A stretch of DNA of 64,000 bases from Kaistia terrae (GTDB lineage Bacteria; Pseudomonadota; Alphaproteobacteria; Rhizobiales; Kaistiaceae). This document shows, piece by piece, positions 5,315 to 44,569 of this stretch (position 1 is the stretch's first letter; each line of letters begins with the position of its first letter). The DNA lies in assembly GCF_026344005.1 (NCBI RefSeq), contig NZ_JAPKNH010000002.1:806001-870000 (forward strand). The letters run 5' to 3'. The notes below the pieces were generated by a model. That model was not told where the DNA came from, ran no database searches, and worked only from the letters and a program-made list of their open reading frames with translations. The translations under genes were made by a program, and so were the position numbers.

Positions 5315-5373
5315 GCCGGTTTGGGGAAAGGCGTTGGCAGCACTCCCGAAGATGTGCTGCTAAAATACTGATA

Positions 5374-5397
5374 CCAAAAGACAATCGTCTCTTTTGG
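5374..5397. repeat. Inverted repeat downstream of the LysR gene
   Basis: CCAAAAGA and TCTTTTGG form a perfect 8-base stem with an 8-base loop, about 60 bases after the LysR stop and 80 before usg. There is no T-run, so it may be a weak terminator or a protein-binding site in the usg leader. Confidence 0.4.
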
Positions 5398-5473
5398 AAT
5401 TGAAAACAAGTCACTTCGGAGCGATCATCATCTAGTCCTTGTGAGGGACTTCCGATCGCCAGATGAGGTGCCT

Positions 5474-5740: not shown

Positions 5741-5797
5741 TGCATTGAGGAATCGGTCCCGCGCCGAAAAAAGCCGGCGCGGGCCATTCACCTGCGA

Positions 5798-8395: not shown

Positions 8396-8424
8396 GGAAA
8401 AGAACTCCGGATATCAACGCTCCA

Positions 8425-8460
8425 CCCGATCCGCTCCTGTAAACGGGCGGAGGGATCGGG
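8425..8460. repeat. Strong inverted repeat inside the Anbu operon
   Basis: In the 135-base gap between the ATP-grasp and alpha-E genes, CCCGATCC plus CTCC pairs with GGAG plus GGATCGGG (12 pairs, one bulge, 11-base loop). There is no T-run on either strand. It could stabilise or process the transcript between the two genes. Confidence 0.5.
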
Positions 8461-8530
8461 CGGGCGGATTGCATCGAACGTAGAGAGTGGTGCCCGTCTC
8501 CCGCAGGCGGGGGACGGTCTCGGTCCGGCG

Positions 8531-29238: not shown

Positions 29239-29280
29239 GGGCACTCACCGGAATGGCTGAAGACGTTGGGAGAGGGGCGG

Positions 29281-29325
29281 TTGACAGCTTATAACCTTAA
29301 TGTCTATCAACATAGTCGTATTAAA
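29281..29325 (+). promoter_or_regulatory. Promoter/operator region of the Pot-type ABC operon
   Basis: An AT-rich island unlike its surroundings. TTGACA is at 29281-29286; the better-placed -10 is TATTAA at 29320-29325, with TTAATG 17 bases upstream. A dyad CTATcaacATAG sits at 29304-29315 inside TTAAT/ATTAA flanks. The 10-mer TCGTATTAAA (29316-29325) recurs in the same orientation upstream of the M24 gene, suggesting one regulator for both transcription units. Confidence 0.55.
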
Positions 29326-29355
29326 ATATCCGCTATTTGCCGAAAGGTCATTCCG

Positions 29356-30399
29356 ATGAAGTCGCGTCTTGTCCGTATCGCCCTCGCTGCCCTGATCGCC
29401 GGGGTCAGTACGGCGGCAATCGCCCGTGATCTGACGGTGATTTCCTGGGGAGGCAATTTCCAGGATGCGCAGCGCAAGGCCTATTTCGAACCTTTCGCGG
29501 CCGAGACAGGCAAGAAGGTCGTCGACGATTCCTGGGAAGGCGGCGTCGGCACCTTGCGGACGCGCGCGGAGGCCGCCGGCGATCCGGGCTGGGACGTGAT
29601 CCATGTCGAAGTCGAGGAGCTTCAGATCGGCGGCGCCGAAGGACTGTTCGAGCCGATCGACTGGAGCAAGATCAGCGCGAAGGACGAGTTGATCCCCGCC
29701 GCGCAGAACAAGTATGGCGTCGGCGCGATCACCTGGTCGGCGGGCATCGCCTATGACGCCGACAAGGCGGGGCCGGCCCCCACATCGGTCTCGGATTTCT
29801 TCGACGTCGAGAAGTTCCCGGGCAAGCGCGCGCTTCGCAAGGGGCCGAAATATGCGCTCGAACTGGCGCTGATCGCCGATGGCGTGCCGGTCGACCAGGT
29901 CTATAGCGTGCTGCGCACGCCGGAAGGTGTCGATCGGGCCTTCGCCAAGCTCGCCAAGATCAAGCCGGATCTCGTCTTCTTCGAGAGCGGCGGTCAGGCC
30001 ATCCAGTTGCTCGCTTCGGGCGAGGCGTCGCAGGTGCTGGCCTTCAATGGTCGCGTCACGGCGGCGAACCAGACGGACAAGCGCAACTTCAAGTTCATCT
30101 GGCCGGGCAGCATCTATGCGCTCGACAATTGGGTCATCCTCAAGAACAGCCCGAACAAGGAAGAGGCGCTGAAGTTCATCGATTTCGCCTCGCGCGCCAG
30201 CCAGCAGCAGATCCTGCCGCAACTGGTCGCCTTCGGCCCGACCAACACCAAGGCAACGGCCGCCCTGCCCGAAGCCGTCGCCGCTGAACTGCCGACCTAT
30301 CCGAAGAACCTGGCCGGAGCGCTGCAGATCGACGCCACCTTCTGGTCGGAGAACATCGAGCCGCTGACCGAGCGTTTCAACGCGTTCGCCAGCCAGTAG
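29356..30399 (+). CDS. Spermidine/putrescine-type ABC transporter substrate-binding protein
   Basis: A 347-residue PotD-like (family 1) periplasmic binding protein. Signal peptide IALAALIAGVSTAAIAR, then the typical mature start RDLTVISWGGNFQDAQRKAYFEPFAAETG and the ligand-pocket segment AITWSAGIAYDADKA near residue 115. The ligand is a polyamine-like or other amine-containing small molecule. It is the first gene of a six-gene operon with both permeases, the ATPase, an FAD oxidoreductase and a PhzF-like enzyme. Confidence 0.88.
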   Translation: MKSRLVRIALAALIAGVSTAAIARDLTVISWGGNFQDAQRKAYFEPFAAETGKKVVDDSWEGGVGTLRTRAEAAGDPGWDVIHVEVEELQIGGAEGLFEPIDWSKISAKDELIPAAQNKYGVGAITWSAGIAYDADKAGPAPTSVSDFFDVEKFPGKRALRKGPKYALELALIADGVPVDQVYSVLRTPEGVDRAFAKLAKIKPDLVFFESGGQAIQLLASGEASQVLAFNGRVTAANQTDKRNFKFIWPGSIYALDNWVILKNSPNKEEALKFIDFASRASQQQILPQLVAFGPTNTKATAALPEAVAAELPTYPKNLAGALQIDATFWSENIEPLTERFNAFASQ

Positions 30400-30411
30400 C
30401 GATTGTCAAAA

Positions 30412-31608
30412 ATGTCTGGAAACGGGGCCGCGCGCGCGAGACGTGCGCGGCTGTCTACCGTGGTGCTGCTGGCGCCGATGGCGCTGTTCCTGCTGGCTGT
30501 GATTGGGGTTCCGCTGTTCCTTCTGGTCTGGCAGAGCGTCGCCGATCGCGACGTTGCCATTGGCTTGCCTCGAACCGTTGCCATGCTGGCGGAAGGCGAG
30601 GGTGCGCCGTCGCCCGCGATCTATCCGGCCTTGGTCGCGGATCTGGCAGCTGCATCCGATAGCGCTGTTGGCCGTGTTGCGCGCCGCCTCAACATCGAAA
30701 AGGCCGGTCTGCGGACGGCTGTCCTGGCGGCACGCGCGACGGCGCTGGAGAGCCCGTCCGATCCGGTCGCGGCCTTGCAGGCAGCCGATGGCCGATGGGC
30801 TCAACCCGAGATCTGGCAGGCGATCCGGGCGGCGAGCGGTCCCTTGACGGATCGCTATCTTCTGGCCGCTATCGATCTGGAGCGCGACGCCAAAGGCGAG
30901 ATCACCAGCCGGCCGACGGAACTCGCGATCTATCGCAGCATCCTGACGCGGACTTTCGTCATTGCGGCGTCGGTCGCGGCGCTGTGCCTGGCGCTCGGCC
31001 TGCCGCTCGCCCTCTATCTCGCTTCCCTGCCGCCGAAGTTTGCCGAGCGCTGGCTGCTGGTGCTGATGCTGCCGCTCTGGACGTCGATCCTGGTGCGCGC
31101 GATGGCCTGGACGCTGCTGCTGCAGTCGAATGGCCTGGTCAACAGCCTCCTGCAACGGGCGGGGCTGATCGCCCAGCCGCTTGATCTCGCCTTCAACCGC
31201 TTTGCCGTCCTTGTCGCCATGACCCATGTGCTGCTGCCCTTCATGGTCCTGCCGATCTACAACGCCTTGCGCGCCATCCCGAAGACGCAGTTGATGGCCG
31301 CCGGTTCGCTTGGGGCGACGCCGCTGCAAAGCGTTGTTCGGGTCTATCTTCCGCAGGCCCGCGCCGGAATCGCTGCGGGGCTGCTTCTCGTGCTGGCCTC
31401 TGCGGCCGGCTATTACATCACCCCGGCGCTGGTTGGCGGACCGGCCGACCGCATGATCGGAACCTTCGTCGAGCTCGCCGTCATCCGCACCAACAATCCC
31501 GGCCTCGCCGCGGCCCTGGGGCTGGTGGCGCTGCTTCTGTTCCTCGCGCTTGTCGGCGTCCTGATCGCCGCGCTGAAGCCCATGCGCGCGCTGGAGGGGG
31601 CTCGCTGA
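30412..31608 (+). CDS. ABC transporter permease, PotB-like
   Basis: A 398-residue inner-membrane permease. One hydrophobic segment (about 18-42) is followed by an unusually long, mostly periplasmic region of about 130 residues, then five segments in the binding-protein-dependent permease domain. The EAA-like loop reads AAGSLGATPLQSVVRVYLPQ. This long insert is a known feature of one subgroup of Pot-like permeases. The ATG at 30412 is preferred to a TTG 9 bases earlier. Its stop overlaps the next gene by one base. Confidence 0.88.
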   Translation: MSGNGAARARRARLSTVVLLAPMALFLLAVIGVPLFLLVWQSVADRDVAIGLPRTVAMLAEGEGAPSPAIYPALVADLAAASDSAVGRVARRLNIEKAGLRTAVLAARATALESPSDPVAALQAADGRWAQPEIWQAIRAASGPLTDRYLLAAIDLERDAKGEITSRPTELAIYRSILTRTFVIAASVAALCLALGLPLALYLASLPPKFAERWLLVLMLPLWTSILVRAMAWTLLLQSNGLVNSLLQRAGLIAQPLDLAFNRFAVLVAMTHVLLPFMVLPIYNALRAIPKTQLMAAGSLGATPLQSVVRVYLPQARAGIAAGLLLVLASAAGYYITPALVGGPADRMIGTFVELAVIRTNNPGLAAALGLVALLLFLALVGVLIAALKPMRALEGAR

Positions 31609-32429
31609 TGTCGACCGATTACGGCCTGCCGCTGCCGCGATGGTGGATGCGCCTTGGCTCGATCCTGCTCGTCGTCATTCTCGTCCTGCCTGCGCTGGTC
31701 GTCGTGCCGATTTCGTTCTCGTCGGGCAGCATCATCGCGTTTCCGCTGCCCGGCTTCTCCTGGCACTGGTATGGCGAGGCGGCGGCGTCGCCGGCGTGGC
31801 GGGATGCCCTGCTGAGCAGCCTGCGGGTTGGTGCTGCCTCCACGCTCATAGCGACCGTGATCGGCACAGCCGCGGCGCTGGGGATCGATCGTCTCCAGGG
31901 GCGGACTCGTGCGATCGTGCTGCTCGCAACCCTGCTTCCGCTGGTGATTCCGATCGTCATCCTGGCGCTGGGCGCATATTTCGCGCTGGCGACGGTGGGG
32001 CTCAGCAACAGCCTGACCGGGCTCGTCATCTTCCACGCCGCGCTCGGCCTGCCTTTCGTCACGCTAAGCGTTGTCGCCTCGCTGCAGGGCTTCGACCGGA
32101 CGCTCTGGCGCGCCGCCGCCAGTCTCGGCGCCAGCCCGATCACGGCCTTCCGGCGGGTGATGCTGCCGATCATCGCGCCCGGCGTCGCCGCTGGAGCCAT
32201 CTTCGCTTTTGCCATGTCGCTGGATGAAGTGGTCGTCGCTTCGTTCGTCACAGCGCCCTCACAACGGACCCTGCCGCTTCAGATGTTCTCGGGAATCAAG
32301 GAAAACACCGGGCCGATCGTCACCGCCGTAGCGACGCTCCTGCTTCTGCTGTCGATGACGTTCCTGCTGGTCGTCGAGATGCTTCGACGCCGTTCGCGCC
32401 GGCTCGCCACCGCCTCGGAGGCGACGTGA
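31608..32429 (+). CDS. ABC transporter permease, PotC-like
   Basis: A 273-residue permease with six hydrophobic segments and the EAA-like loop AAASLGASPITAFRRVMLPI near residues 166-185. It matches PotC-type subunits in length and in the MSLDEVVVASFVT segment near residue 205, which is diagnostic for Pot/spermidine-type permeases. It should pair with the longer upstream permease in the inner membrane. Start and stop each overlap the neighbouring genes (TGATG junctions). Confidence 0.9.
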   Translation: MSTDYGLPLPRWWMRLGSILLVVILVLPALVVVPISFSSGSIIAFPLPGFSWHWYGEAAASPAWRDALLSSLRVGAASTLIATVIGTAAALGIDRLQGRTRAIVLLATLLPLVIPIVILALGAYFALATVGLSNSLTGLVIFHAALGLPFVTLSVVASLQGFDRTLWRAAASLGASPITAFRRVMLPIIAPGVAAGAIFAFAMSLDEVVVASFVTAPSQRTLPLQMFSGIKENTGPIVTAVATLLLLLSMTFLLVVEMLRRRSRRLATASEAT

Positions 32430-33520
32430 TGGCCTTGGCAGAGCCGCTTCTGCGCCTTCGGGGCGTCACCAAGCGCTATGACGGCGGCGGGCTGGTGGTC
32501 GATGCGCTGGACCTCACCGTCGAGCGGGGCGAATTCCTGACGCTGCTGGGTCCCTCCGGCTCCGGCAAGACGACGACCCTGATGATGATCGCCGGCTTCG
32601 AGCAGGCCAATGCCGGCGAGATCCTCTATGAGGGGCGCTCGATCGCCAACCTGCCGCCGCACAAGCGCGACTTCGGCGTGGTGTTCCAGAGCTATGCCCT
32701 GTTCCCGCATATGAGCGTTGCCGAAAACGTCGCCTTCCCGCTGACCCTGCGCGGAATTGCCAGGGCGGAAATCGATCGTCGGGTGGCGCGGGCGCTGGAT
32801 ATGATCGAGCTCGGCGGGCTGGGTGCGCGACGGCCGGGGCAATTATCCGGCGGCCAGCAGCAGCGGGTCGCCCTGGCGCGTGCGCTGGTGTTCGAGCCGA
32901 AGCTGGTCCTGATGGACGAGCCGCTCGGCGCGCTCGACAAGCGGCTGCGCGAGCAGATGCAGCTGGAGATCCGCAGGCTGCATCGCGAACTCGGCCTCAC
33001 CGTCGTCTATGTCACCCACGACCAGACGGAAGCCATGGTGATGTCCGACAGGGTGGCGGTGTTCCATCTGGGGCGGGTCCAGCAACTCGCCGATCCCCGG
33101 ACCATTCACGAGCAACCTGCAAACGGTTTTGTCGCCCGCTTCATCGGCGAGACCAACGCCTTTGACGGTCGCCTGACCGGAACGGGCGACGGGCGCGACG
33201 TCCGCATCGACGGCTCAGCCGGGCTGGTGCTTCGCGGCGTGGCCGGCCAGTCCGCGCCCCGCAGCGCCTATGTCCTGGTCTCGATACGGCCGGAGCGGAT
33301 TTCCATCGGCGATGGCCATGGCGAGAACCGCGTCGTCGGTCGGGTGAGGCAGGCGATCTATTTCGGCGACCACCTCGGCATCGAGGTCGCGATCGACGGC
33401 GGCGCGATGGTTCGCGTCAATCTGGGCGTGCGCGGCGTGGATCATGCGCCGGTGCCGGACAGCGAGATTGTTCTGAGCTGGCGGGCGGAGCATACGCTCC
33501 TGCTCGAGCCGGTCATCTGA
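32429..33520 (+). CDS. ABC transporter ATP-binding protein, PotA-like
   Basis: A 363-residue ATPase with Walker A LGPSGSGKTTTLMMIAG near residues 40-56, VFQSYALFPHMSVAENVAFP Q-loop, signature LSGGQQQRVALARALV, Walker B LVLMDEPLGALD and the switch His in VTHDQTEAM. The C-terminal part from about 240 is a TOBE domain (YVLVSIRPERISI). Both sequence and position assign it to the Pot-type importer. It overlaps the permease stop at 32427-32429. Confidence 0.92.
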   Translation: MALAEPLLRLRGVTKRYDGGGLVVDALDLTVERGEFLTLLGPSGSGKTTTLMMIAGFEQANAGEILYEGRSIANLPPHKRDFGVVFQSYALFPHMSVAENVAFPLTLRGIARAEIDRRVARALDMIELGGLGARRPGQLSGGQQQRVALARALVFEPKLVLMDEPLGALDKRLREQMQLEIRRLHRELGLTVVYVTHDQTEAMVMSDRVAVFHLGRVQQLADPRTIHEQPANGFVARFIGETNAFDGRLTGTGDGRDVRIDGSAGLVLRGVAGQSAPRSAYVLVSIRPERISIGDGHGENRVVGRVRQAIYFGDHLGIEVAIDGGAMVRVNLGVRGVDHAPVPDSEIVLSWRAEHTLLLEPVI

Positions 33521-33538
33521 GGAGTGAGACGAGAACGT

Positions 33539-34651
33539 ATGGCTGCCAGTAAGGTCATTGTCGTGGGCGCGGGCATTGCCGGTTTGTCGCTTGCCCGCTC
33601 CCTCGTGAAGCAGGGATTTGCGGTCGAGCTGTTCGACCAGGGGCCGATCCCCAATCCGCTTTCCTCGTCCTTCGACGAGCATCGCATCACCCGCCATACC
33701 TATGGTTCGCTGGACGGCTACACGCGGCTGATGCCGGATGCCTTCCGGGCGTATGACGCGCTCTGGCAGGACCTTGGCAAGCGTCACTACCTGCCCACCG
33801 GCATCGCCTATGTGCGCCGGCAGGCGGATGACTGGTATGCGACGACTGCCCGCGATCTCGACGCGTTCGGCATCGAGCATCGACTTCTGACGGAGGGCGA
33901 GGTCGCCGCGCGCTTGCCGATGGTCCGGCCCGGCGGCATCCATTCCGTCGTCGAGGTCGGTGGCGCCGGCCTGTTGTTCCCGCAGCGTATCCTGGCGGAT
34001 CTGGTCGCCTGGCTCCGCGAGGCAGGCGTCGTTCTCCATGAGCACAGCGCGGTCGAGGCGATCGACCTTGAGCATGGCCGTGTCGTCGTGGCCGGCAAGA
34101 CGCATGCGGCGGACGTCGTGCTGGTCGCGGCCGGCGCGTGGGTTACCCGGCTCCTGCCGGAGGTTGCTCCCGCGGTCACGCCGTCGCGGCAGACCGTGCT
34201 GTATCTCGATCCGCCCGACGATCTCCGAAGCGCCTGGGCCGAGGCGCCGATCCTGATCGAGGAGGGCGCACATCTGAGCTATACGCTGCCGCCGCGTGGC
34301 GGCACGGGTCTGAAGATCGGCGATCATCATTTCAGCCGGCGTGGCCATCCGGACGAGGACCGGACGCCGTCATCCGAGGATATCGCGCCCGTCGAAGCGG
34401 CAGCCGCCGCCGCCTTTGCCGGGTTTGAGCGCTATCGGATCCTCGAGGCCAAGACCTGCTTCTATACGGTCAGCGATGACGAGAGCTTCTTCGTCCAGCC
34501 GCTTGGACGCACAGGCTGGGTGGTGAGCGCCTGTTCGGGCCATGGGTTCAAGCTGGCGCCGTTGATTGCCCAAGGTGTCGCCGAGGCGATCTCCGGCAAG
34601 CGCGACCCTGCCAAAATCGCCGAATGGGCGGCCGGAAAGGATCCCAGATGA
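33539..34651 (+). CDS. FAD-dependent oxidoreductase (DAO/sarcosine oxidase-like)
   Basis: A 370-residue flavoenzyme with the N-terminal FAD motif VIVVGAGIAGLSLARSLVKQG and FD at the end of the second strand, and the DAO-family block near the C terminus (GRTGWVVSACSGHGFKLAP). Members oxidise secondary or N-methylated amines such as sarcosine and N-methyltryptophan. The substrate is unknown but, since the gene follows a polyamine-type importer, it may act on the imported amine. ATG 33539 is chosen over GTG 33524 because the latter touches its ribosome-binding site. Its stop overlaps the phzF-like gene by 4 bases. Confidence 0.88.
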   Translation: MAASKVIVVGAGIAGLSLARSLVKQGFAVELFDQGPIPNPLSSSFDEHRITRHTYGSLDGYTRLMPDAFRAYDALWQDLGKRHYLPTGIAYVRRQADDWYATTARDLDAFGIEHRLLTEGEVAARLPMVRPGGIHSVVEVGGAGLLFPQRILADLVAWLREAGVVLHEHSAVEAIDLEHGRVVVAGKTHAADVVLVAAGAWVTRLLPEVAPAVTPSRQTVLYLDPPDDLRSAWAEAPILIEEGAHLSYTLPPRGGTGLKIGDHHFSRRGHPDEDRTPSSEDIAPVEAAAAAAFAGFERYRILEAKTCFYTVSDDESFFVQPLGRTGWVVSACSGHGFKLAPLIAQGVAEAISGKRDPAKIAEWAAGKDPR

Positions 34652-35451
34652 AGCTCGACGTCTTTATCATCGACGCGTTTTCCGATCGACCGCTGGCCGG
34701 CAATCCGGCCGGCGTCTGCCCTTTGCCGGAATGGCTGCCGGACGCGTCGATGCAGGCGATCGCCTCCGAACTGAACCAGACCGAGACGGTCTTTTTCGCT
34801 CCCGAGGATGACGACTACCGTATCCGCTGGTTCACGCCGACGCGCGAGGTCGACCATATCGGCCACGCCACGCTGGCCGCAGGTCATCTCGTGCTGTCGA
34901 AGCTCGATCCGGCTCGCTCGGAAGTGCGGTTTCGCACCGGCGACGACTACATGCTGGTTCGGCGGGACGGCGACGGCGTGGCGCTCGACATGGCGGCCTT
35001 GCCGCCGCGACCGGCCCGCGTCACCGACGAGGTGGTGGCGGCATTGGGCGCGCGGCCGGTCGAGGCCCTGGCGGCCAAGCATCATCTCTTCGTTTTCGAG
35101 ACTTGGCAGGAGGTCGCCGGCCTGCGCCCGGACATGGCGGCGGTCGCCCGGCTGGAGCTGCCGGCGGTGATCGTCACCGCCCCGTGCGGCGTTGATGGCG
35201 ATGGAAATCCCGTCGACTTTGTCTCGCGCTTTTTCGCGCCGGCCAACGGCGTGCCCGAGGACCCGGTCTCCGGTGTCTCGCATTGCTGCCTGACGCCCTA
35301 CTGGGCGTGGCGTCTCGGCAAGGCGCATCTGGTCGGGCAGCAATTGTCGGCGCGTGGCGGCACCATTCGCTGCGAAGATCGCGGGGAGCGCGTTGTCCTT
35401 GGCGGAAGGGCGGCGATCTCGTTGCAGGGCGTGCTGAGCCTGCCAGCCTGA
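34648..35451 (+). CDS. PhzF family isomerase/epimerase-like protein
   Basis: A 267-residue PhzF-type protein with two similar diaminopimelate-epimerase-like halves. FIIDAFSDRPLAGNPAGVCPL opens the protein, the conserved Glu is in ELNQTETVFF near residue 47, and ARVEDPVSGVSH-type sequence (VPEDPVSGVSHCCLTPYW) marks the second half. PhzF enzymes catalyse proton shifts; most homologues have unknown substrates. The ATGA overlap with the FAD enzyme suggests they act in sequence on one metabolite. Confidence 0.9.
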   Translation: MKLDVFIIDAFSDRPLAGNPAGVCPLPEWLPDASMQAIASELNQTETVFFAPEDDDYRIRWFTPTREVDHIGHATLAAGHLVLSKLDPARSEVRFRTGDDYMLVRRDGDGVALDMAALPPRPARVTDEVVAALGARPVEALAAKHHLFVFETWQEVAGLRPDMAAVARLELPAVIVTAPCGVDGDGNPVDFVSRFFAPANGVPEDPVSGVSHCCLTPYWAWRLGKAHLVGQQLSARGGTIRCEDRGERVVLGGRAAISLQGVLSLPA

Positions 35452-35504: not shown

Positions 35505-36659
35505 CTACACGATCGTGAATTCGCGCGGATAGCGGGTCAAATAGTCGAAGCCCTTGTCGGTGACGACGATGGAATCGCCGACCCGCGCGCCGAACGTGTT
35601 GGGGATGGTGATGCCGCCATCGACGGCGAACGTCATGCCGGTTTGCAGCGGGGTCTTGTCGCCGCGCTTCAGTTGCGGCTCTTCAAGGTAGGAATAGCCG
35701 ATGGCGCGGCCCGTGCGATAGGCGAGGCCGAAGCCGGCGGAGCGATAGACTTCCTCCGCCGCCGCATGGACGTCTTCGGCGATGGCGCCGGGCCGGATTT
35801 CCGCCAGCGCGGCCTGCTGGGCGGCCACCACCGTCTCATAGGTGCGCTGCTGCTCGTCGGTCGCCGAGCCAAGGAAGAATTCGCGATCGAAGCCGAGCTT
35901 GAACTGCTTGAACGTCGCCATGCCGCAGAAGCAGAAATAGATCGGGTCGCCCTTGGCGAGCGGCTTCACCGTCGAACGGCGATGAACCATGCAGGTTTCC
36001 CAGCCGGACTGCAGGATCTGCAGATTGTAGATTGTCGGCGAGACGAGCGCGTCCTCGCCATTGTCGGCCAGGAAGCGGGCGGCGCGACGCGTGCCGGCGG
36101 CGATGACAGCAAGCGCCAGCTCGTATTCCGGCACGCCTTCCGCAATCGCGGCGCGACCACCTTCGACCATCGCCACGGCAACCTCGCCGGCCTGGTGCAT
36201 GGTGGCGATCTCATCCGGCGACTTGATGGCGCGCAGGGTGCCGATCGTGCGCGAGACGTCCCGCCAGTCGGCGTCTGGGGCCAGCGCGCGCAGGACCGAG
36301 GCGACACGCGGGTGTGTTTTGAAGGGTTCGATGCCGATGACGCGATAGGTCTGGCCGGCGAAGATCGCCTCGACATGGCGCGGCCACTCGCCGTCGATCC
36401 CGTCGGTCCATTCGCGAACGTCCGGGACCGATCCCATCCGCCGCGCCAACTCGGCTTCCATGGCCGGCGTGATGAGGACGGGGGCACCCAGGCGAGGAAT
36501 GACCAGGAGCGTTGCCCGGTCATACTCCATGCCGAGATAGTCGCAGAAGCCCGAGAAATAGAAGATCGAGTCCGCGTCATGCAGGATGGCGACGTCGATG
36601 CCGTCCTCCGCCAACCGTTGCTGCAACTCGATCGTTCTCGCCTCTTGCACCCGCATCAT
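35505..36659 (-). CDS. M24 (creatinase/aminopeptidase P-fold) protein lacking most metal ligands
   Basis: A 384-residue pita-bread-fold protein: a creatinase-type N-terminal domain (residues 1-130, FYFSGFCDYLGMEYDRATLLVI) and an M24 domain from about 150. Where metal aminopeptidases have Asp-Asp-His-Glu-Glu, I read YFCFCG (no first Asp), GFDREFF (second Asp possibly kept), RTGRAIGYS (His replaced), FAVDGGIT (Glu to Asp) and ARVGDSI (Glu lost). It cannot be a normal metallopeptidase and may act like creatinase or as a different hydrolase. It is relatively near ectoine-type genes, where the M24 hydrolase DoeA/EutD occurs, but it is not a clear DoeA. Confidence 0.82.
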   Translation of the reverse strand: MMRVQEARTIELQQRLAEDGIDVAILHDADSIFYFSGFCDYLGMEYDRATLLVIPRLGAPVLITPAMEAELARRMGSVPDVREWTDGIDGEWPRHVEAIFAGQTYRVIGIEPFKTHPRVASVLRALAPDADWRDVSRTIGTLRAIKSPDEIATMHQAGEVAVAMVEGGRAAIAEGVPEYELALAVIAAGTRRAARFLADNGEDALVSPTIYNLQILQSGWETCMVHRRSTVKPLAKGDPIYFCFCGMATFKQFKLGFDREFFLGSATDEQQRTYETVVAAQQAALAEIRPGAIAEDVHAAAEEVYRSAGFGLAYRTGRAIGYSYLEEPQLKRGDKTPLQTGMTFAVDGGITIPNTFGARVGDSIVVTDKGFDYLTRYPREFTIV

Positions 36660-36754: not shown

Positions 36755-36812
36755 GATGTGCGACGAGAACCGCCGCGCTCTTCACCGCGCCGGTTCTATG
36801 ATTTGTCAGTGG

Positions 36813-37196
36813 CTAGACGGGATCGTATCCGCCATGGGCGTTGTGGGTCTCGGTGCCGGCCAAGGGCGGGTTGAAGACGCAGACGAGATGCAGATCGCCC
36901 TTGAGCGCCCGCAGGATGTGCTCGTCATGCTGGTCGAGCGCATAGACGGTTCCGACCGCGATCGGATGCGTCTTGCCGGTGGCGACATCGAAGACTTCGC
37001 CGGCGCCGGCGATGCAGTAGTTCGTCTCGTAGTGCTCCTTGTAGTGGCAATGCACTTCAGAGCCTTCGGGCACGACCGTGTGGTGGACGGAATAGCCGAG
37101 CCCGTCGCCCTTCACGATCAGCCGCGTGCTGCGCCAACTGTCGGTGACGACATGGCGGTCGGTCTTGCGCAGGTCTTCGACGTCGTGAACGATCAT
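36813..37196 (-). CDS. ectC: Ectoine synthase (EctC), orphan
   Basis: A 127-residue cupin closely matching EctC, which cyclises N-gamma-acetyl-2,4-diaminobutyrate to ectoine. Residues described as essential in EctC are found at the same numbers: W21, S23, T40, the iron ligands E57, Y85 and H93, with Cys106 and Phe108 near the end. The block YALDQHDEHILRA and CVFNPPLAG are diagnostic. No ectA, ectB, ectD or ask_ect lies in the window, so it is an orphan. It sits 24 bases after an amidase gene at the end of an Ehu-like importer operon. In vivo direction of the reaction is unknown. Confidence 0.9.
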   Translation of the reverse strand: MIVHDVEDLRKTDRHVVTDSWRSTRLIVKGDGLGYSVHHTVVPEGSEVHCHYKEHYETNYCIAGAGEVFDVATGKTHPIAVGTVYALDQHDEHILRALKGDLHLVCVFNPPLAGTETHNAHGGYDPV

Positions 37197-37220
37197 GATC
37201 TTGCCTTCTGGGGTTCGGTT

Positions 37221-38531
37221 TCAGCGGTGGGAAGAAGCGAGGACGGCCTCGACCGAGGCGGCGAGGGCGAGCAGGGCGCTGTCATGCCCATTCCGCCCTG
37301 TCAGCATCAGCCCGATCGGTTGGCCCTGCGCGATGGGAAGGCTGACGCTCGGCGCATCGATGCGATTGGCCACCTCGGTCAGCCGGAAGGTCAGGCGGTT
37401 TGCGGGGTAATAATGTTCGTCGTCCGAGACGTCGTCGACGCGCGGCGGCAGGATCGGCACGGTCGGCGTCAGCAGCCCATCGAAGCCTTCGAGGTCGCGG
37501 TGATAGGCCTTCGCCAACCGCGCCAACTCCTGCCGGGCGCGGAGATAGGCGACGGCGGACACATCCTTGCCAAGCTGGATGCGCGGGCCGACACGCGGAT
37601 CGTAGTCCGCCGCGCGGCTCTCGAGATGAGGCTGGTGCCAGGCGAAAGCCTCGGCGACGATGAGGCCGCCCTCGACGGCGATCCGGCCATAGCTCTCCAA
37701 TTCCGGCCAGTCGCGCTCAACGATTACCGCGCCGGCTTGCCGGAGGGTTTCGACAGCCTCCAGGAAGCGGGCAGTGACCGCCTCGTCGGCGGCGTCGAGC
37801 GCGAATTTTGGCGGCAGCAGGAAGCGGTGGCCGCGCAGGTCGGCGGGCTGGATCGCCGTCTCGCCGGTGATCGCCTGATCGGCGCGGGTGCAGGTCTGGA
37901 TATCCCGCGCCAGGAATCCGGGGACGTCAAAGCTTGTGGACAGGTGGAGCAGGCCCTCATCCGGGTAGCGACCCTTGCTGGGCTTGAAGGCGGCAAGGCC
38001 GCAAAAGGCGGCGGGGATACGGACGGAGCCGCTGGTGTCGCTGCCCAGCGCCAGATCGGCAAAACCGAGCGCCACGGCGACGGCGCCGCCGGATGTCGAG
38101 CCGCCGGCGATCCGCTCGCGCGACGGATCGAGCGGTGTGCGCGGCGTGCCGAAATGTGGATTGAGCCCGAGCGCGCCGAAGGCGAACTCGGTCATGTTGG
38201 TCTGGCTGGTGACGACCGCGCCGTTCGCCCGCAGCCTGGCCACCAGCGCGGCGTCTTCCTTCGCCGGCGGGGCGTCCCGGAGAAGCTTCGCCCCGGCGGT
38301 CGTCGGCCAGCCGGCGACGTCGAAGCAGGCTTTTGCTGCGACGGTCAGTCCATAAAGCGCCGGCCGGGCGGACGGGGATGCCGCCAGCGTATCCCAGGCC
38401 GCCGCCTCCCGCAGCGCGGCTTCATCGCGCCGGCGGAGAATGGCCAGCCTGGCGTCCTCGGGGTGCGCGTCGATCCGCGCCAGTTGCTGCGCGACGTTGT
38501 GGCGAAAGTCGCCGGCCAGGGTCTGCGTCAT
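37221..38531 (-). CDS. Amidase signature family protein
   Basis: A 436-residue amidase with the Ser-cisSer-Lys triad: Lys in TVAAKACFDV near residue 67, first Ser in GGSTSGGAVAVALG near 145 and the nucleophile region GSDTSGSVRIPAAFCGLAAF near 164. Cytoplasmic. It cleaves an amide or acylamide; between an Ehu-like importer and ectC, a role on an acetylated diaminobutyrate-like compound is possible, in place of the usual DoeB-type deacetylase, but nothing in the sequence proves it. It is 10 bases downstream of the ABC ATPase. Confidence 0.88.
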   Translation of the reverse strand: MTQTLAGDFRHNVAQQLARIDAHPEDARLAILRRRDEAALREAAAWDTLAASPSARPALYGLTVAAKACFDVAGWPTTAGAKLLRDAPPAKEDAALVARLRANGAVVTSQTNMTEFAFGALGLNPHFGTPRTPLDPSRERIAGGSTSGGAVAVALGFADLALGSDTSGSVRIPAAFCGLAAFKPSKGRYPDEGLLHLSTSFDVPGFLARDIQTCTRADQAITGETAIQPADLRGHRFLLPPKFALDAADEAVTARFLEAVETLRQAGAVIVERDWPELESYGRIAVEGGLIVAEAFAWHQPHLESRAADYDPRVGPRIQLGKDVSAVAYLRARQELARLAKAYHRDLEGFDGLLTPTVPILPPRVDDVSDDEHYYPANRLTFRLTEVANRIDAPSVSLPIAQGQPIGLMLTGRNGHDSALLALAASVEAVLASSHR

Positions 38532-38541
38532 GATCTCGCTC

Positions 38542-39312
38542 TCAGCTCAGATGGACGGCGCGCAGGAACGCGCGGGTGCGCTCGTTTCGCGGCTCGTTGA
38601 GGATTTGCTGCGGTGTCCCGTCTTCCAGGATCCGGCCACCTTCCATGAAGCAGATCCGGTCGGCAATCGCACGGGCGACGCCGATCTGGTGCGTGACGAC
38701 GACGATCGTCAGGTCGCGCTCATGCGCCAGCGCGCGCATCACTTCCAGAACCTCGCCGACGCGCTCGGGATCGAGCGCCGAGGTGGCTTCGTCGAACAGC
38801 ATGATTTCCGGCTCCAGGGCCATGGCGCGGGCGATGGCGACCCGCTGCTGCTGGCCGCCGGAAAGCGTCGCCGGATAGTTCTGCAGCTTGTCGGAAAGCC
38901 CGACCTGCGCCAGCAGCGCGGCGGCGCGCGCTTCGGCCTCGGCCTGCGACAGACCCAGCACATGGCGCGGCGCGGCGGCGACATTGCCGAGCGCGGTCAG
39001 GTTGGGAAACAGGTTGAAGTTCTGGAACACCATGCCGACCAGCGAGCGCATGTCGCGCAGGTGCTTTCGCGTCGGCTTGATGCGGTGCTTGCCGCCCGCC
39101 GCGTCCCAGAGAGGCCGGCCGTCGAGGCTGACCTTGCCCTGATCGATATCCTGCAGCGCCATGATGATGCGCAGCAGCGTCGACTTGCCGGAGCCGCTCG
39201 GGCCGATGATCGCGACCTTCTCGCCGCGCGCGACGCGAAAATCGAACTGGTCCAGCACGACGGTCTGGCCGAAGCGCTTGTCCACTTTGTCGAAGGTGAT
39301 CATGTCGCTCAT
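38542..39312 (-). CDS. Polar amino acid-type ABC transporter ATP-binding protein (EhuA-like)
   Basis: A 256-residue ATPase: Walker A IGPSGSGKSTLLRII, Q-loop MVFQNFNLFPNLTALGN, signature LSGGQQQRVAIARAMAL, Walker B IMLFDEATSALD and switch HQ in VVVTHQIG. It belongs to the GlnQ/HisP group, to which EhuA (ectoine uptake) also belongs. The switch region THQIGVARAIADRICFMEGGRI is normal. The ATG at 39312 overlaps the permease stop by 4 bases; the longer open frame upstream lies in another gene's antisense frame space. Confidence 0.9.
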   Translation of the reverse strand: MSDMITFDKVDKRFGQTVVLDQFDFRVARGEKVAIIGPSGSGKSTLLRIIMALQDIDQGKVSLDGRPLWDAAGGKHRIKPTRKHLRDMRSLVGMVFQNFNLFPNLTALGNVAAAPRHVLGLSQAEAEARAAALLAQVGLSDKLQNYPATLSGGQQQRVAIARAMALEPEIMLFDEATSALDPERVGEVLEVMRALAHERDLTIVVVTHQIGVARAIADRICFMEGGRILEDGTPQQILNEPRNERTRAFLRAVHLS

Positions 39313-39974
39313 GCGTAGCGGGTCCCGAGGCGCTGGCGCAGCAGGAACACGGCAAACGCCGCGATCAGGCTCATGACGAGATAGGCGATTGCCGCCATGG
39401 TCATCGGCTCGACATAGCGGAAGCTTTGCGAGCCGGCGTCGTTGGCGGCGAACATCAGTTCCGGGACGGTGATCGCGGCCAGGATCGGGGTATCCTTGAG
39501 CATGGTGATGAAGGTGTTGCCGAGCGAGGGAACCAGCGGCGCGATCGCCTGCGGCAGGATGAGGTAGCGATAGGCGGCGAACCGCGAGAAGCGCAGGCTT
39601 TCGATCGCGTCCCACTGGCCGCGCGGGATGCTGTCGAGCCCGGCGCGATAGGCTTCCGCGACATAGGCGCCGTGATAGAGGCCAAGCGCCAGGATGCCGG
39701 TGGTGACCGGCTCCAGCACGATGCCGGCATCCGGCAGCACGAAGAACAGGACGTAGACCTGGATCAGCAGCGGCGTCGACCGCAGCAGTTCGACCAGCCC
39801 GCGCCCGAGCCAGGCAATGGCGGTTTGCTTCGAGCGGCCGAGGGCCAGCAGCACGGCGCCGATGATAAGCGAGGCGAAAAAGCCGCCGATCGTCGCGATG
39901 AAGGTGACGACCGCGCCGCGCAGCAGCGCCGGCAGGATCTCGGCCGCGAACGGCCAGGAGAAGATCTCCGTCAT
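39309..39974 (-). CDS. Polar amino acid-type ABC transporter permease (EhuD-like)
   Basis: A 221-residue permease with five or six hydrophobic segments and the HisM/GlnP-family marks ELLRSTPLLIQVYVLFFVLP near residues 62-81 and RGQWDAIESLRFSRFAAYRY near 118. It is the second permease of the importer, its ATG overlapping the stop of the first (39971-39974). It sits in the inner membrane with its partner and the EhuA-like ATPase. Confidence 0.9.
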   Translation of the reverse strand: MTEIFSWPFAAEILPALLRGAVVTFIATIGGFFASLIIGAVLLALGRSKQTAIAWLGRGLVELLRSTPLLIQVYVLFFVLPDAGIVLEPVTTGILALGLYHGAYVAEAYRAGLDSIPRGQWDAIESLRFSRFAAYRYLILPQAIAPLVPSLGNTFITMLKDTPILAAITVPELMFAANDAGSQSFRYVEPMTMAAIAYLVMSLIAAFAVFLLRQRLGTRYA

Positions 39975-40633
39975 GCCGGCTGACCCGTCTGGCGGCCGCG
40001 CGACAGCACCTTTTCCATCCGGCGCATGAAGCTGGCCGCGATCAGCGAAATGACGAGATAGATCGCCAGCGTCACCAGCAGCACGTTGCCGGAGCTGTAG
40101 GTCTTGGTGATGATCGATTTCGCCTGGAAGGTCAGATCCGGAATGGTGATCAGCGAGACCAGCGAGGTCGCCTTGATCAGCTCGATCAGCAGGTTGCTGA
40201 ACAGCGGCATCATCATGATCAGCGCTTCCGGCAGGATGACGATGCGCAGCGTCTGGAAATAGCTGAAGTTGAGCGCGGCGGCGGCGTCCAACTGGCCCTG
40301 AGGCACGGCCTGGATGCAGCTTCGCACCACTTCCGCGCCATAGGCGCCGAAGCAGAGCCCGAGGCCGAGCGTCGCGCATTGCAGCGGCGTCAGGTCGATG
40401 CCGAGATAGGGCAGGACGTAGAACAGCCAGAACAGCTGGACGAGCGCCGAGGTGCCGCGGAAGAACTCGACATAGACGCCGGAGGCGATGCGAAGCACGC
40501 GCAGCTTCGACGATCGCGCCACGCCGGCGACGATCGCCAGAACCAAAGCGAGCAACGCCGAAAGGACCGACAATTTGACGGTCCACCAGACGCCGGCCAG
40601 AAAATCGAAGCGGTATTCCCAGATCAGGGCCAT
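39971..40633 (-). CDS. Polar amino acid-type ABC transporter permease (EhuC-like)
   Basis: A 220-residue HisM/GlnP-family permease: VEFFRGTSALVQLFWLFYVLP near residues 55-75 and the loop QAVPQGQLDAAAALNFSYFQ near 108. Five hydrophobic segments. The ATG at 40633 is preferred over a TTG one codon upstream. Between it and the binding-protein gene is a 10-base-pair hairpin, which commonly sets a higher expression of the binding protein than of the membrane parts. Confidence 0.9.
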   Translation of the reverse strand: MALIWEYRFDFLAGVWWTVKLSVLSALLALVLAIVAGVARSSKLRVLRIASGVYVEFFRGTSALVQLFWLFYVLPYLGIDLTPLQCATLGLGLCFGAYGAEVVRSCIQAVPQGQLDAAAALNFSYFQTLRIVILPEALIMMMPLFSNLLIELIKATSLVSLITIPDLTFQAKSIITKTYSSGNVLLVTLAIYLVISLIAASFMRRMEKVLSRGRQTGQPA

Positions 40634-40650
40634 CAAACCGAACTCGAAAA

Positions 40651-40680
40651 CGGGACGCGCATCCTCGGACGCGCGTCCCG
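40651..40680 (-). repeat. Intercistronic hairpin (transcript stabilising or attenuating)
   Basis: CGGGACGCGC and GCGCGTCCCG pair perfectly around ATCCTCGGAC in the gap between the binding-protein and permease genes. It lacks a T-run, so partial termination or protection of the upstream mRNA from 3' decay is more likely than full termination. Confidence 0.55.
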
Positions 40681-40691
40681 GTCAGGGAAGG

Positions 40692-41540
40692 CTACTTGCA
40701 GAGCTCAGCGAGCTTGACCGTGCCGTCGGGAATGTCGGCCGCGGTGAAGCCATAGGGTTCGCCGATCTTGGCGGCCTCGCCCGAGGTCAGGATCACGGCG
40801 AGATGTTTGTTGAATTCGTCGACGAAGGGCTGGTCTTCGAGGCGGAAGGCGTAGCTGCCGATGCCGATCGCCGGCTTGCCGTCGATGATCGCCTGCTCGA
40901 ACGGGATCGCGCGCTCGACGGCGGGATCATTGGCGGTCTTGATCGTCGACTGGACGGTGACGCCGGTGTTGAGGAACGCATCGATGCGCTTGGTCTTCAC
41001 CGCCGCAAGCAGCGAGGCGACGTCGGGCAGGGTGACGAGCTGGTCCTTGGAGACGCCGGCGGCCAGGGCGTGGTCGGCGATCGGGCCGCCGCCGGTCAGG
41101 TAGCCGAGCTTGATCGCCGGATCCTTGGCGATGTCGGAGTAGCTGTGGATGCCCTTCGGGTTGCCCGCGGCCACGATGATCCCGTCATTGACGAAATGCG
41201 TCGGCTCGGCGAAGGCGACCAGCTTGCAGCGGTCGGGGCGGATGTAGAGGTCGGAGGCGATGATGTCGAAGCGGCGGGCCTGCAGGCCGGGGATCAGCGC
41301 GCCGAACTGCGTGGGTACTGCCTCGAGTTCGACCTTGCCGATCTTGGCGAGGACGGCGTTCAGCAGGTCCACCTCATAGCCGGTCAGCTTGCCGTTTGGC
41401 CCGGTGACGATGAAGGGTTCCTGCTCGGCGAAGCCGACGCGGACCGTCTTGCCTGCCTTGACGTCGTCGAGAAGGCCGGCGGATGCGCCGGAGAGTGAGG
41501 CGAGCAGAAGCGCTGCGCCGACGAGAGCCGATCTTATCAT
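40692..41540 (-). CDS. Polar amino acid-type ABC substrate-binding protein (EhuB-like)
   Basis: A 282-residue periplasmic binding protein. Signal peptide SALVGAALLLASLSGASAG, then a family 3 binding domain with RVGFAEQEPFIVTGPNGKLT in part, FGALIPGLQARRFDIIASDL near 72 and ERA-type end AKIGEPYGFTAADIP. The pattern (GALIPGLQ, PDRC, EP, GNPKGIHSYSDIA) is like EhuB-type ectoine-binding proteins, though other polar amino acid ligands remain possible. GGAG precedes the ATG at 41540. It is the first gene of the MocR-linked operon. Confidence 0.85.
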   Translation of the reverse strand: MIRSALVGAALLLASLSGASAGLLDDVKAGKTVRVGFAEQEPFIVTGPNGKLTGYEVDLLNAVLAKIGKVELEAVPTQFGALIPGLQARRFDIIASDLYIRPDRCKLVAFAEPTHFVNDGIIVAAGNPKGIHSYSDIAKDPAIKLGYLTGGGPIADHALAAGVSKDQLVTLPDVASLLAAVKTKRIDAFLNTGVTVQSTIKTANDPAVERAIPFEQAIIDGKPAIGIGSYAFRLEDQPFVDEFNKHLAVILTSGEAAKIGEPYGFTAADIPDGTVKLAELCK

Positions 41541-41579
41541 GCTGGTATGCTCCACACCGCCATTGTTTGCGTCACATAA

Positions 41580-41754
41580 CCATACAAACAGTGCAAGGTT
41601 TCGGAAGAATGTATGTTTCAAATGTATGGAGAAGTGGCGATTTTTCACCCCACAATTCCGTTGAAGGGCGGAATGGAATTACTTCCCATTCGGATCGGTA
41701 GGCCTGTAGCTTGTGACAGGCGCGAGCGCGGGATATCTGCAACGCCATACAAAC
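41580..41754. promoter_or_regulatory. MocR-type operator region with four CCATACA-like boxes
   Basis: The divergent gap between the EhuB-like and MocR genes holds CCATACAAAC at 41580-41589 and again at 41745-41754, plus two reversed relatives: ATGTATGTTT at 41609-41618 and ATGTATGG at 41622-41629. Repeated direct and inverted boxes are typical for MocR/GabR regulators, which bind as head-to-tail dimers. The first three lie next to the transporter start, the fourth 20 bases before the MocR start. Confidence 0.55.
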
Positions 41755-41773
41755 GCGTGTCGCGGAGATGCAC

Positions 41774-43186
41774 ATGGGACGTTCCCCGTCGATCGGTCCT
41801 GGCAGTCCCCGATGGAGCCCGAGGCTGGAAGAAGCCTCGCCGTCCAAGCATCAGGGCATCTTCGACGCCCTTGTGGCCGATATCGCCAGCGGCCGGCTGC
41901 GGCCCGGCGATCGTCTGCCGCCGCAGCGCGCGGTCGCCGCCGCGCTGGGGGTGGATCTTACCACCGTCACCAAAGCCTATAGTCGCGCGCGCGAAGAGGG
42001 GATCATCGACGCCACGACGGGGAGGGGATCTTTCGTCGCGGGCGAGCCCCGTCCCGCCAGCACTCTCGCGGATGTCGCGGCAGGGGCGATCGATCTCAGC
42101 AAGAACAGCCCGCCAAAGCCGCAGGATTTCCAGCGCATTCTGGCGCGGGATATCGGCCAGGCCTTGTCCGGCAGCGACGAATCCCTGCTCGATTATCAGG
42201 AAACGGGCGGCAGTTGGACCAATCGCTCGGCAGGGGCGACATGGCTCGGTCAGCGCGTCGACGGCTGCGCGCCGGACCGCGTGATCCTGGCCTCAGGAGC
42301 TCAGAGCGCCCTGTTCGCCATTTGCCATCTGCTGTGTCGCGCATCCAGACATGTGGCCGTCGGGGAGTTCTGCTATCCGGGAATTCACACGGTCGCCGCC
42401 CAGCAGGAGCTCGTGCTCGTTCCGCTGGCGATGGATGGCGAGGGCATCCTGCCGGCCGCGTTCGAGGACGCCTGCCGGCTCCAGTCGCTCGACGCGTTGT
42501 ACATAACCCCGACCGCGGACAACCCGACGACGGCGAGCCTTTCTGAGCTACGGCGGCAGGAGATTGTCCGGATCGCCCGCAAGCACGCGGTTTCGATTAT
42601 CGAGGATGATCCTTACGGCGCATTGCTCGATGCGCCGCCGCCGGCGATCGCTTCCCTTGGTCCGGACATCACCTGGCATATCGCGACCCTATCGAAATGC
42701 CTGACGCCGGCCCTGCGTTTTGGCTATGTCGCCGCGCCATCTCCCAAACAGGCGCAGGAATTGGCGGCGACGCTGCAAGCCATGACGATGATGGCGTCGC
42801 CATTGCTGGCCGGCATCGCCACACGGTGGATCCGTTCCGGCTTCCTGCAGGAAATGTCAGCCGCCATTGGCGCGGAGAACACCGGGCGGCAAGAACTCGC
42901 CGCGTCGATTCTCTCCGGAATGAGATTGGCAGCCAATCCTTCCGCTCCCCATCTCTGGTTGACGTTGCCCGATCCCTGGCGAGCGTTCGATTTCGTTCGC
43001 CAGGCGGAGCTCCGGGGCGTGCTGATCCTGGCGAGTGCCAGTTTTGCGATCGCCAAGCCGTCACTCGAAGCTGTCCGGATCTCGCTAGGCGCCGCGCCGG
43101 ATCGCGGCGCGTTGGAAACGGCGCTGCGGAGCCTCCGGAGCCTGCTTGATCAATCTCCGCCCGATACGCGCCGCGCTATAGTCTGA
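41774..43186 (+). CDS. MocR/GabR family transcriptional regulator with aminotransferase domain
   Basis: A 470-residue fusion of a GntR winged helix-turn-helix (residues 25-95, GDRLPPQRAVAAALGVDLTT) and a fold type I PLP-aminotransferase domain. The Schiff-base Lys is in ATLSKCLTPALRFGYV near residue 300 and the phosphate region in IEDDPYG. Such proteins sense amino-compounds through PLP; EnuR, the ectoine-catabolism regulator, is in this family. ATG 41774 has GGAG 6 bases upstream and is preferred to 41768. It is divergent from the Ehu-like operon, and likely controls it. Confidence 0.88.
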   Translation: MGRSPSIGPGSPRWSPRLEEASPSKHQGIFDALVADIASGRLRPGDRLPPQRAVAAALGVDLTTVTKAYSRAREEGIIDATTGRGSFVAGEPRPASTLADVAAGAIDLSKNSPPKPQDFQRILARDIGQALSGSDESLLDYQETGGSWTNRSAGATWLGQRVDGCAPDRVILASGAQSALFAICHLLCRASRHVAVGEFCYPGIHTVAAQQELVLVPLAMDGEGILPAAFEDACRLQSLDALYITPTADNPTTASLSELRRQEIVRIARKHAVSIIEDDPYGALLDAPPPAIASLGPDITWHIATLSKCLTPALRFGYVAAPSPKQAQELAATLQAMTMMASPLLAGIATRWIRSGFLQEMSAAIGAENTGRQELAASILSGMRLAANPSAPHLWLTLPDPWRAFDFVRQAELRGVLILASASFAIAKPSLEAVRISLGAAPDRGALETALRSLRSLLDQSPPDTRRAIV

Positions 43187-43219
43187 CGCCCGCGCCGATC
43201 GCGACAAGGTCGGCGATGC

Positions 43220-44569
43220 CTAGCGAAGCCGTGATTTCCACTCGCCCGATGCCGGCCTGGGCACGCCGAGATTTTCGCGCAGCGTCGCGCCCTCGTACTC
43301 CGTCCGGAACAGGCCGCGCCGCTGCAGTTCCGGCACCACATGCTCGGCAAACTGTTCAAACGCGGCGGGGACGTGGGTCGGGGAAATCATGAAGCCGTCC
43401 GCCGCGCGGCGGTCGAACCACTCCTCCATCCGGTCGACGATCACGGCCGGCGTGCCGACGAGATCGCCCTCGGTGCGCGCGCCATACCATTTGCCGAGCT
43501 GGCGGACGGTGAAGTTTTCGCGCGCCGCGACCTCCAGCACCTCGTGGTAATGGCCATAGACACCCTTGACCTCGAGCGGGGGCAGCGGCTTGTCGAGGTC
43601 GAACTGCGAGAGGTCGACATCAATGTGATAGGAGAGGCGGGCGAGGCCGGCCTCCGCCGGCACGAGTTCTTCAAATTCCAGCTTCCGCGCCTCGGCGTCT
43701 TCCTCGCTCCGGCCGACAATCGGCGTCACCGCCGGCAGGATCTTGAGATGGTCGGGATCGCGGCCATGCCGAGCCGCCAGTGCCTTCACCTCCGCATAGA
43801 AGGCGATGGCGGACTCGATTGAGGCATGGCTGCAGAAGATCACGTCGGCCCAGCGTGCGGCGAAGTCGCGGCCATCCGGTGAAGAGCCGGCCTGGATGAT
43901 GACCGGATAGCCCTGCGGCGAGCGCGGCAGGCTGAGCGGCCCCTGGACCTGGAAATGCGCACCCTGATGGTTGATCGAGGCGACGGCGGCTGGGTCGGCG
44001 AAATCGCCGCTCGCCTTGTCGAGCTTCAGCGCGCCGTCCTGCCAGCTGTCCCAGAGCTTGGCGGTGACTTCGAGGAACTCGTCGGCGCGCTGGTAGCGCT
44101 CGGAGCGCCCGGGCAGCTTCTCATTGCCGAAATTGAGCGCTTCCGCGTCCTGGAACGAGGTGACGACGTTCCAGCCGGCGCGACCGGATGTCAGGTGATC
44201 GAGCGAGGAGAAGGTGCGCGCGGCGTTGAACGGCTGCTGGTAGCCGGTCGAAAGCGTGGCGCCGACGCCGAGATGCTCGGTGACGGCGGCAATCTGCGCG
44301 ATCACCGGGATCGGATCCAGCCGAGGGGTGCCAACGCCGTAATGCACGTGGTTCTCGATGCTGTTGCCGAAACTGCGGGGGATGCCGAGGCTGTCGGCGA
44401 AGAAGACGAAATCGAACCGCGCCGCCTCCAGGATGCGGCCGACCTTCTGGTAGAAGGCCGGCGAGAACCAGCCGGATTCCGCGTCGGGATGGCGCCATGC
44501 GCCGACGCCGCCGGGCCCGGCATTCATGAAGGCGGCGAGATGGATCTGTCCGGGGCGGGTGCGGGGCAT
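43220..44569 (-). CDS. LLM class flavin-dependent monooxygenase (NtaA/SnaA/DszA-like)
   Basis: A 449-residue FMNH2-dependent monooxygenase of the luciferase-like superfamily: QIHLAAFMNAGPGGVGAWRH start, FFADSLGIPRSF, GWNVVTSFQDAEALNFG near 130-146 and GYPVIIQAGSSPDGRDFAAR near 215 are typical of the NtaA/SnaA/DszA group, which needs a separate flavin reductase. It is the last gene of the Ssu-like operon and probably oxidises a sulfur- or nitrogen-bearing substrate brought in by it. The ATG at 44569 is the only good start; the open frame beyond has no similarity. Confidence 0.87.
   Translation of the reverse strand: MPRTRPGQIHLAAFMNAGPGGVGAWRHPDAESGWFSPAFYQKVGRILEAARFDFVFFADSLGIPRSFGNSIENHVHYGVGTPRLDPIPVIAQIAAVTEHLGVGATLSTGYQQPFNAARTFSSLDHLTSGRAGWNVVTSFQDAEALNFGNEKLPGRSERYQRADEFLEVTAKLWDSWQDGALKLDKASGDFADPAAVASINHQGAHFQVQGPLSLPRSPQGYPVIIQAGSSPDGRDFAARWADVIFCSHASIESAIAFYAEVKALAARHGRDPDHLKILPAVTPIVGRSEEDAEARKLEFEELVPAEAGLARLSYHIDVDLSQFDLDKPLPPLEVKGVYGHYHEVLEVAARENFTVRQLGKWYGARTEGDLVGTPAVIVDRMEEWFDRRAADGFMISPTHVPAAFEQFAEHVVPELQRRGLFRTEYEGATLRENLGVPRPASGEWKSRLR

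Follow-up and report, generated by a model that had tools for sequence, protein, structure and literature searches.

An orphan ectoine synthase of the Asn59 type, its amidase partner and an Ehu-like importer in a recurrent gene module of Kaistia terrae

Within a 64-kb stretch of the genome of Kaistia terrae (contig NZ_JAPKNH010000002.1, positions 806,001 to 870,000; the window in what follows), an orphan ectoine synthase, EctC, lies beside an amidase at the end of a run of genes for an Ehu-like importer, with a regulator of the MocR type transcribed divergently. With coordinates descending from 41540 to 36813, the genes are those of EhuB, EhuC, EhuD, EhuA, amidase and EctC; this order had been proposed in an initial annotation of the sequence and is borne out by coordinates and by profile scores, which we judged throughout against curated Pfam and NCBIfam cut-offs (Table 1). 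On sequence comparison, the seven genes mocR-ehuBCDA-amidase-ectC behave as one shared unit, and the best explanation we can offer, held tentatively when taken as a whole, is that of a self-contained module shared horizontally. Quite possibly it would import and degrade an ectoine-like cyclic amidine or an N-acyl-diamino acid, EctC opening the ring and the amidase removing the acyl group. The module is rare within its family: in a survey of 28 genomes EctC is found in three, and one of these (G017) holds a true ectABCD cluster.

The limits of the unit can be read from a sister species (G018), where EctC is identical to that of the window across 126 residues. The DNA of this species aligns with window positions 36812-43189 at 94.8% identity, that is, from the ectC stop to just past the mocR stop and no further; its left flank, 8.7 kb long, is unrelated to the window, while its right flank comprises only 258 bases to the contig end. 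At eight other loci common to the two genomes, a convenience sample of regions already at hand, the main aligned piece is 86.4-90.9% identical, with second pieces at 80.9-84.6% in three of them. Because the match spans ectC to mocR next to an unrelated flank, we see the unit as made of seven genes, leaving outside it the M24 peptidase gene that follows on the ectC strand after 153 bp, in a gap where a simple scan found neither a terminator nor a promoter. The proposal that ectC is the last gene of the run thus fails for the run of genes on that strand and stands for the module, which ends at ectC in the sister copy. As a candidate DoeA the M24 peptidase was ruled out, both by its TIGR02993 score (Table 1) and by the lack of a counterpart in the sister module.

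The complete order is present in five loci: the window, the sister species, Pseudomonas sp. SLFW, and plasmids of Rhizobium sp. WYJ-E13 and R. bangladeshense. The amidase adjoins ectC in ten loci, window included, with transporters that differ between them: the pair sits next to different transporter genes in Caballeronia zhejiangensis, Shinella zoogloeoides and Burkholderia multivorans, and has no adjoining transporter in two genomes (G207 and G117). EctC matches occur in 121 plasmid records; the regions of nine were inspected, and an amidase match lies beside ectC in five of the nine. Since four loci besides the window share the full order, and nine the amidase-ectC pair, the arrangement is not a matter of chance, and the view that EctC, importer, amidase and MocR regulator form one unit gains support. 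The accessory genes that follow ectC vary, coding for a DUF2817 and a VOC protein (two loci), Flavodoxin_2 oxidoreductases (three) or RidA (one). As to the surroundings, the B. multivorans locus (L080) holds at 13214-14074 a gene for a DUF1989 protein beside a probable GntR-type regulator (read by eye), and that of Rhizobium sp. WYJ-E13 (L076) holds at 4786-6013 a second ehuB and a cupin gene with a DHCW motif, preceded by the same TTGTATG-type motif as the module.

One might argue from the varied transporters that importer and regulator serve some other amino acid, ectC being a passenger or the remnant of an ect operon; Ancylobacter lacus has an EctC that is 80% identical, with no other module gene in the 17.6 kb examined. 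Against this stand the identical gene order in distant hosts, the catalytic residues that EctC has kept, and an amidase that has a clade of its own and co-occurs with EctC. We hold this explanation to be very improbable.

The amidase passes PF01425 and contains the Lys/Ser-Ser region of its family. The ten linked enzymes form one clade with respect to four others (support 99/99), and eleven of them, once the amidase L179 of genome G031 had been added by similarity, form one clade with respect to 32 others (Shimodaira-Hasegawa-like approximate likelihood ratio test, SH-aLRT, 99). Signature positions, chosen post hoc after inspection of the alignment, follow the same division: position 68, which we take to be the neighbour of the catalytic Lys (catalytic residues being assigned from family knowledge), is Ala in 11/11 members of the clade and Asp in 31/32 of the others; position 167 is Ser in all eleven and in none of the 32, and the same holds for Glu386 together with Arg390. 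When four candidates were scored in each of 397 genomes of the order, the five listed amidase matches of at least 356 bits (G000, G018, G031, G207 and G117) stood apart from the rest, at 309.5 bits or less. All five genomes also hold an EctC with Asn59, adjacent to the amidase in four and on a separate contig in G031, where the next gene after the amidase codes for an oxidoreductase that shares 47% identity with the Flavodoxin_2 protein of WYJ-E13's module. Clade and co-occurrence together support the view that this amidase is a specific, dedicated partner of EctC, as its pairing with EctC in the initial annotation had anticipated. Its best model, NF005460, gives 419.6 bits, under the cut-off of 447. 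It was rejected as an indoleacetamide hydrolase (252.3 bits for a required 532), and amidases carried on plasmids by Azospirillum, Paraburkholderia and Paracoccus were discarded as functional hints, as they fall outside the linked clade, in regions with no annotated ectC.

EctC itself passes both of its family models, and the residues W21, S23, T40, E57, Y85 and H93, already named in that annotation, are all present, together with R25, Y52 and F108. Residue 38 is His, as in S. alaskensis EctC (Asn in P. lautus). Among solved structures its closest relatives are 5bxx and 5ono, both ectoine synthases, and an AlphaFold2 model (mean predicted local distance difference test score, pLDDT, 88.2, lower toward the C-terminal end) has 5bxx and 5onm as its best Foldseek matches. 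To place the protein among its homologues we used 118 distinct sequences, the large searches contributing only their best 30 or so loci each, with one sequence per locus, identical rows collapsed and matches of fewer than 90 residues dropped; a sequence was labelled ectA/ectB-linked when either gene lay no more than 2.5 kb away on the same strand, and amidase-linked when an amidase lay within 300 bp. Column 59 is Val in 83/83 ectA/ectB-linked rows and Asn in 10/10 amidase-linked rows, window and near-identical sister included; the 25 remaining rows have Asn (12), Cys (9) or Val (4). Neighbouring ectA and ectB, and Val59, which as a mark is our own observation and no published criterion, are features of the ectA/ectB-linked proteins of this set, and the window EctC has neither. 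This suggests a check to annotators, Asn59 and Cys59 being found in no ectA/ectB-linked EctC of the set; yet Val59 also occurs in the four rows without visible ectA or ectB.

Other unusual forms of EctC came to light in the same searches. Five loci (L082, L096, L097, L127 and L129) hold a second orphan group, outside the Asn59 clade, with Cys59 and with Ser at Cys106 (VSVF or VSIF), and no amidase match adjoins their ectC. At L087 (G137), 8146-9466, the gene that comes after an Asn59 EctC is arginine deiminase/DDAH-like and is read as two frames. Tandem EctC domains occur in open frames of about 240-470 residues in ten genomes (G516, G618, G707, G738, G782, G662, G064, G104, G265 and G338), and contig C81 of G707 has eight EctC-domain matches inside 3.3 kb.

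The K. terrae genome, 99.35% complete, contains a single EctC and, when searched as a whole, gave no match above the curated cut-offs for EctA (best 31.7 bits for 120.6), EctB (188.3 for 552.2), DoeA (80.8 for 613) or DoeB (301.4 for 402.7), which extends to the genome the absence of ectA, ectB, doeA and doeB remarked for the window. The 301-bit protein was rejected as DoeB and is read as a paralogue because the sister species has an equivalent beside its true DoeB: proteins of the same type occur in G017 and G018 (299.8 bits each), and G018 has a DoeB at 610.6 bits as well. That species carries a canonical locus of ectoine catabolism, with DoeA (821.9 bits), EutC (537.7) and a second EhuB (396.6), all, like its DoeB, over their cut-offs. 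Holding module and canonical locus together, it indicates that the module probably does not simply replace canonical ectoine catabolism.

The importer and the regulator bear on the same question. All six module EhuB rows, which come from five loci, have AEQEPF; at the same place 2q88 and five other EhuBs, one of them doe-linked and four ect-linked, have ANE.P[FY]. At one position of the pocket region, then, Gln replaces a Glu that is reported to contact ectoine in the EhuB structure, while every EhuB compared retains the P.RC motif's Arg. The published description of ectoine binding names aromatic residues and an Arg (PMC6344544). In the 227 bp between mocR and ehuB lie both exact copies of TTGTATGG present in the whole window, where 0.30 would be expected. 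The divergent regions also hold all copies of their locus in the sister species (2/2), Pseudomonas (2/2) and R. bangladeshense (3/3), and in WYJ-E13 only a 7-base form (2/5 of those in the locus); these repeats are possible MocR operators. The EnuR operator ATTGTnnnnnnACAAT, as quoted in PMC8739950, has zero exact matches in the window. Sites with two mismatches number five, for 5.55 expected, and one of them falls inside the divergent region (41641-41656), its intact half being altered in the sister species. The regulator was rejected as EnuR or EhuR on its score (Table 1), and two other module MocR proteins reach 364.5 and 376.8 bits on the same model; EhuR is nonetheless the nearest family model.

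It had been suggested that the module degrades ectoine by non-homologous enzymes, EctC standing for DoeA and the amidase for DoeB, so that imported ectoine would be opened and then deacetylated. Part of this link holds: EhuB, EhuC and EhuD pass the cut-offs of ectoine importers (EhuA being 2.3 bits below), the genome has no DoeA or DoeB over cut-off, EhuR is the closest MocR family, and there is the EnuR-like site just described. What weakens ectoine as the substrate is the sister's Doe locus beside the module, Gln in EhuB, the loss of the EnuR-like half-site in the sister, the different promoter motif, and Asn59 in EctC. To this should be added that the EctC equilibrium is reported to lie almost wholly toward ectoine, hydrolysis of which is minimal (PMC6344544). 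The opening of ectoine itself is therefore the harder version of the idea, and we consider it distinctly unlikely; given this equilibrium and the sister's canonical locus, the substrate is probably something other than plain ectoine. The same source describes the hydrolysis of homoectoine by EctC, and side reactions are reported in PMC4795551.

From gene content we infer the following course for the degradation of an ectoine-like compound, including its substrate, the direction and sequence of its steps, and its regulation. The MocR protein, probably sensing an amine via pyridoxal phosphate, would regulate the operon through the divergent region, where the TTGTATGG repeats may serve as its binding sites; the Ehu-like transporter would bring in a zwitterion resembling ectoine; EctC of the Asn59 type and the amidase dedicated to it would then act in sequence on a pair made of a cyclic amidine and an N-acyl-diamino acid, EctC hydrolysing the ring to the latter, and the amidase stripping the acyl group and thereby pulling an unfavourable ring opening. 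We may go further and imagine that Asn59-type EctCs are, in vivo, not ectoine synthases at all but hydrolases opening the ring of another cyclic amidine or cyclic guanidine amino acid, making up with the amidase an undescribed catabolic pathway spread horizontally among Proteobacteria; this extension we consider unlikely.

Several observations weigh against the degradation of a compound other than ectoine. The published equilibrium for ectoine opposes ring opening, and the window species has no canonical locus while three of its importer proteins, EhuB among them, pass the ectoine cut-offs; the EnuR-like site at 41641-41656 points the same way. Amidase does not accompany Asn59 everywhere, as 12 of the 22 Asn59 rows have none beside ectC (five of these 12 were viewed with 1.5-kb flanks only). 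Furthermore, the EctC tree places all 22 in a clade of 23 with one Cys59 row (L089), with weak support (80/93); because every Asn59 row shares this one clade, the counts at column 59 are not independent events, and Asn59 may reflect shared ancestry instead of a switch in specificity. Finally, that residue 59 should face the same side as the iron ligand Glu57, toward the pocket, is deduced from strand alternation, the two residues being two positions apart within the strand predicted at 56-70.

The equilibrium also invites the reverse proposal, that of salvage or osmoprotection, where an N-acyl-diamino acid, or its amide trimmed by the amidase, would be imported and closed by EctC to ectoine or an analogue. 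The published metal and ligand residues are kept, His38 is that of S. alaskensis EctC, and expression of the solitary P. syringae ectC in an ectC mutant of H. elongata resulted in ectoine (PMC5924519). P. syringae fed with N-gamma-acetyldiaminobutyrate (N-gamma-ADABA), however, made no ectoine, in data that the same review calls inconclusive; the combination of importer, MocR regulator and hydrolase suggests catabolism, and it is hard to see what the amidase would do in ring closure. On balance we find salvage somewhat unlikely.

Table 1. Features of the module and its neighbour, in window coordinates
Feature	Position	Strand	Evidence
MocR-type regulator (GntR and aminotransferase domains), divergent	41768..43186	+	PF00392, PF00155; NF052286 EhuR 377 bits, below cut-off 480
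Divergent promoter region, 227 bp	41541..41767	.	Two TTGTATGG, at 41580-41587 and 41745-41752, possible MocR operators
EhuB-like substrate-binding protein, AEQEPF replacing ANE.P[FY]	40692..41540	-	TIGR02995 237.7 bits, cut-off 190.9; alignment
EhuC-like permease	39971..40636	-	TIGR03004 237.4 bits, cut-off 196.95
EhuD-like permease	39309..39980	-	TIGR03003 238.5 bits, cut-off 205.2
EhuA-like ATPase	38542..39309	-	TIGR03005 343.1 bits, 2.3 under cut-off 345.4
Amidase-signature hydrolase, EctC-linked clade (Ala68, Ser167, Leu336, Glu386, Arg390)	37221..38531	-	PF01425 264.4 bits; clade and signature positions
EctC with Asn59, 127 aa	36813..37196	-	PF06339 169 bits (cut-off 27); NF009806 170.8 (cut-off 128)
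M24 peptidase, judged not a module member	35505..36659	-	PF00557; TIGR02993 83.6 bits, cut-off 613; missing from sister copy

Beyond the M24 peptidase, and facing it, positions 28786-35451 of the plus strand form a separate cluster with ABC transporter genes (read by eye), an FAD-dependent oxidoreductase and a PhzF protein. Two transfer RNA calls made by ARAGORN, at 41053-41141 inside ehuB and at 44396-44483 in the next, LLM-like coding region, are probably false.

Orphan EctCs are a known kind of protein, making up 145 of the 582 proteins of a 2018 survey, with a function stated as open in PMC5924519 and PMC6344544, and the module is a variant among them. Open-licence literature yielded no paper recognisable as describing it, which is not proof of absence, and the main text of PMC5320631 mentions neither amidase nor ectC. 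With the solitary groups 2-3 of PMC5924519 the module shares an EctC without ectA or ectB, catalytic residues that are kept, and hosts that are mostly Proteobacteria; it adds a recurrent operon context, the dedicated amidase and the Asn59 signature. The ectoine locus of the Sinorhizobium meliloti type (ehuABCD, eutABCDE, enuR; PMC5924519) likewise has an Ehu importer and a MocR regulator, whereas in the module amidase and EctC take the place of DoeA/EutD and DoeB/EutE, MocR is divergent and the promoter motif is another one. The bona fide EctCs of P. lautus and S. alaskensis have the same fold and the same metal and substrate ligands; the window protein differs from them by Asn59 for Val59, by a one-residue insertion at 100, and by a genome without ectAB. 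Biuret hydrolase (6c62) and allophanate hydrolase (4gyr) resemble the amidase in family match and in the Lys/Ser-Ser region, while the module enzyme falls in a separate clade, has Lys-Ala in place of Lys-Asp and DTSGS in place of DTGGS, and carries Glu386 and Arg390. One group of orphan EctCs thereby gains an enzyme as its specific partner, an importer, a regulator together with a motif that is a candidate operator, and a signature at a single residue, which makes the function of such proteins testable.

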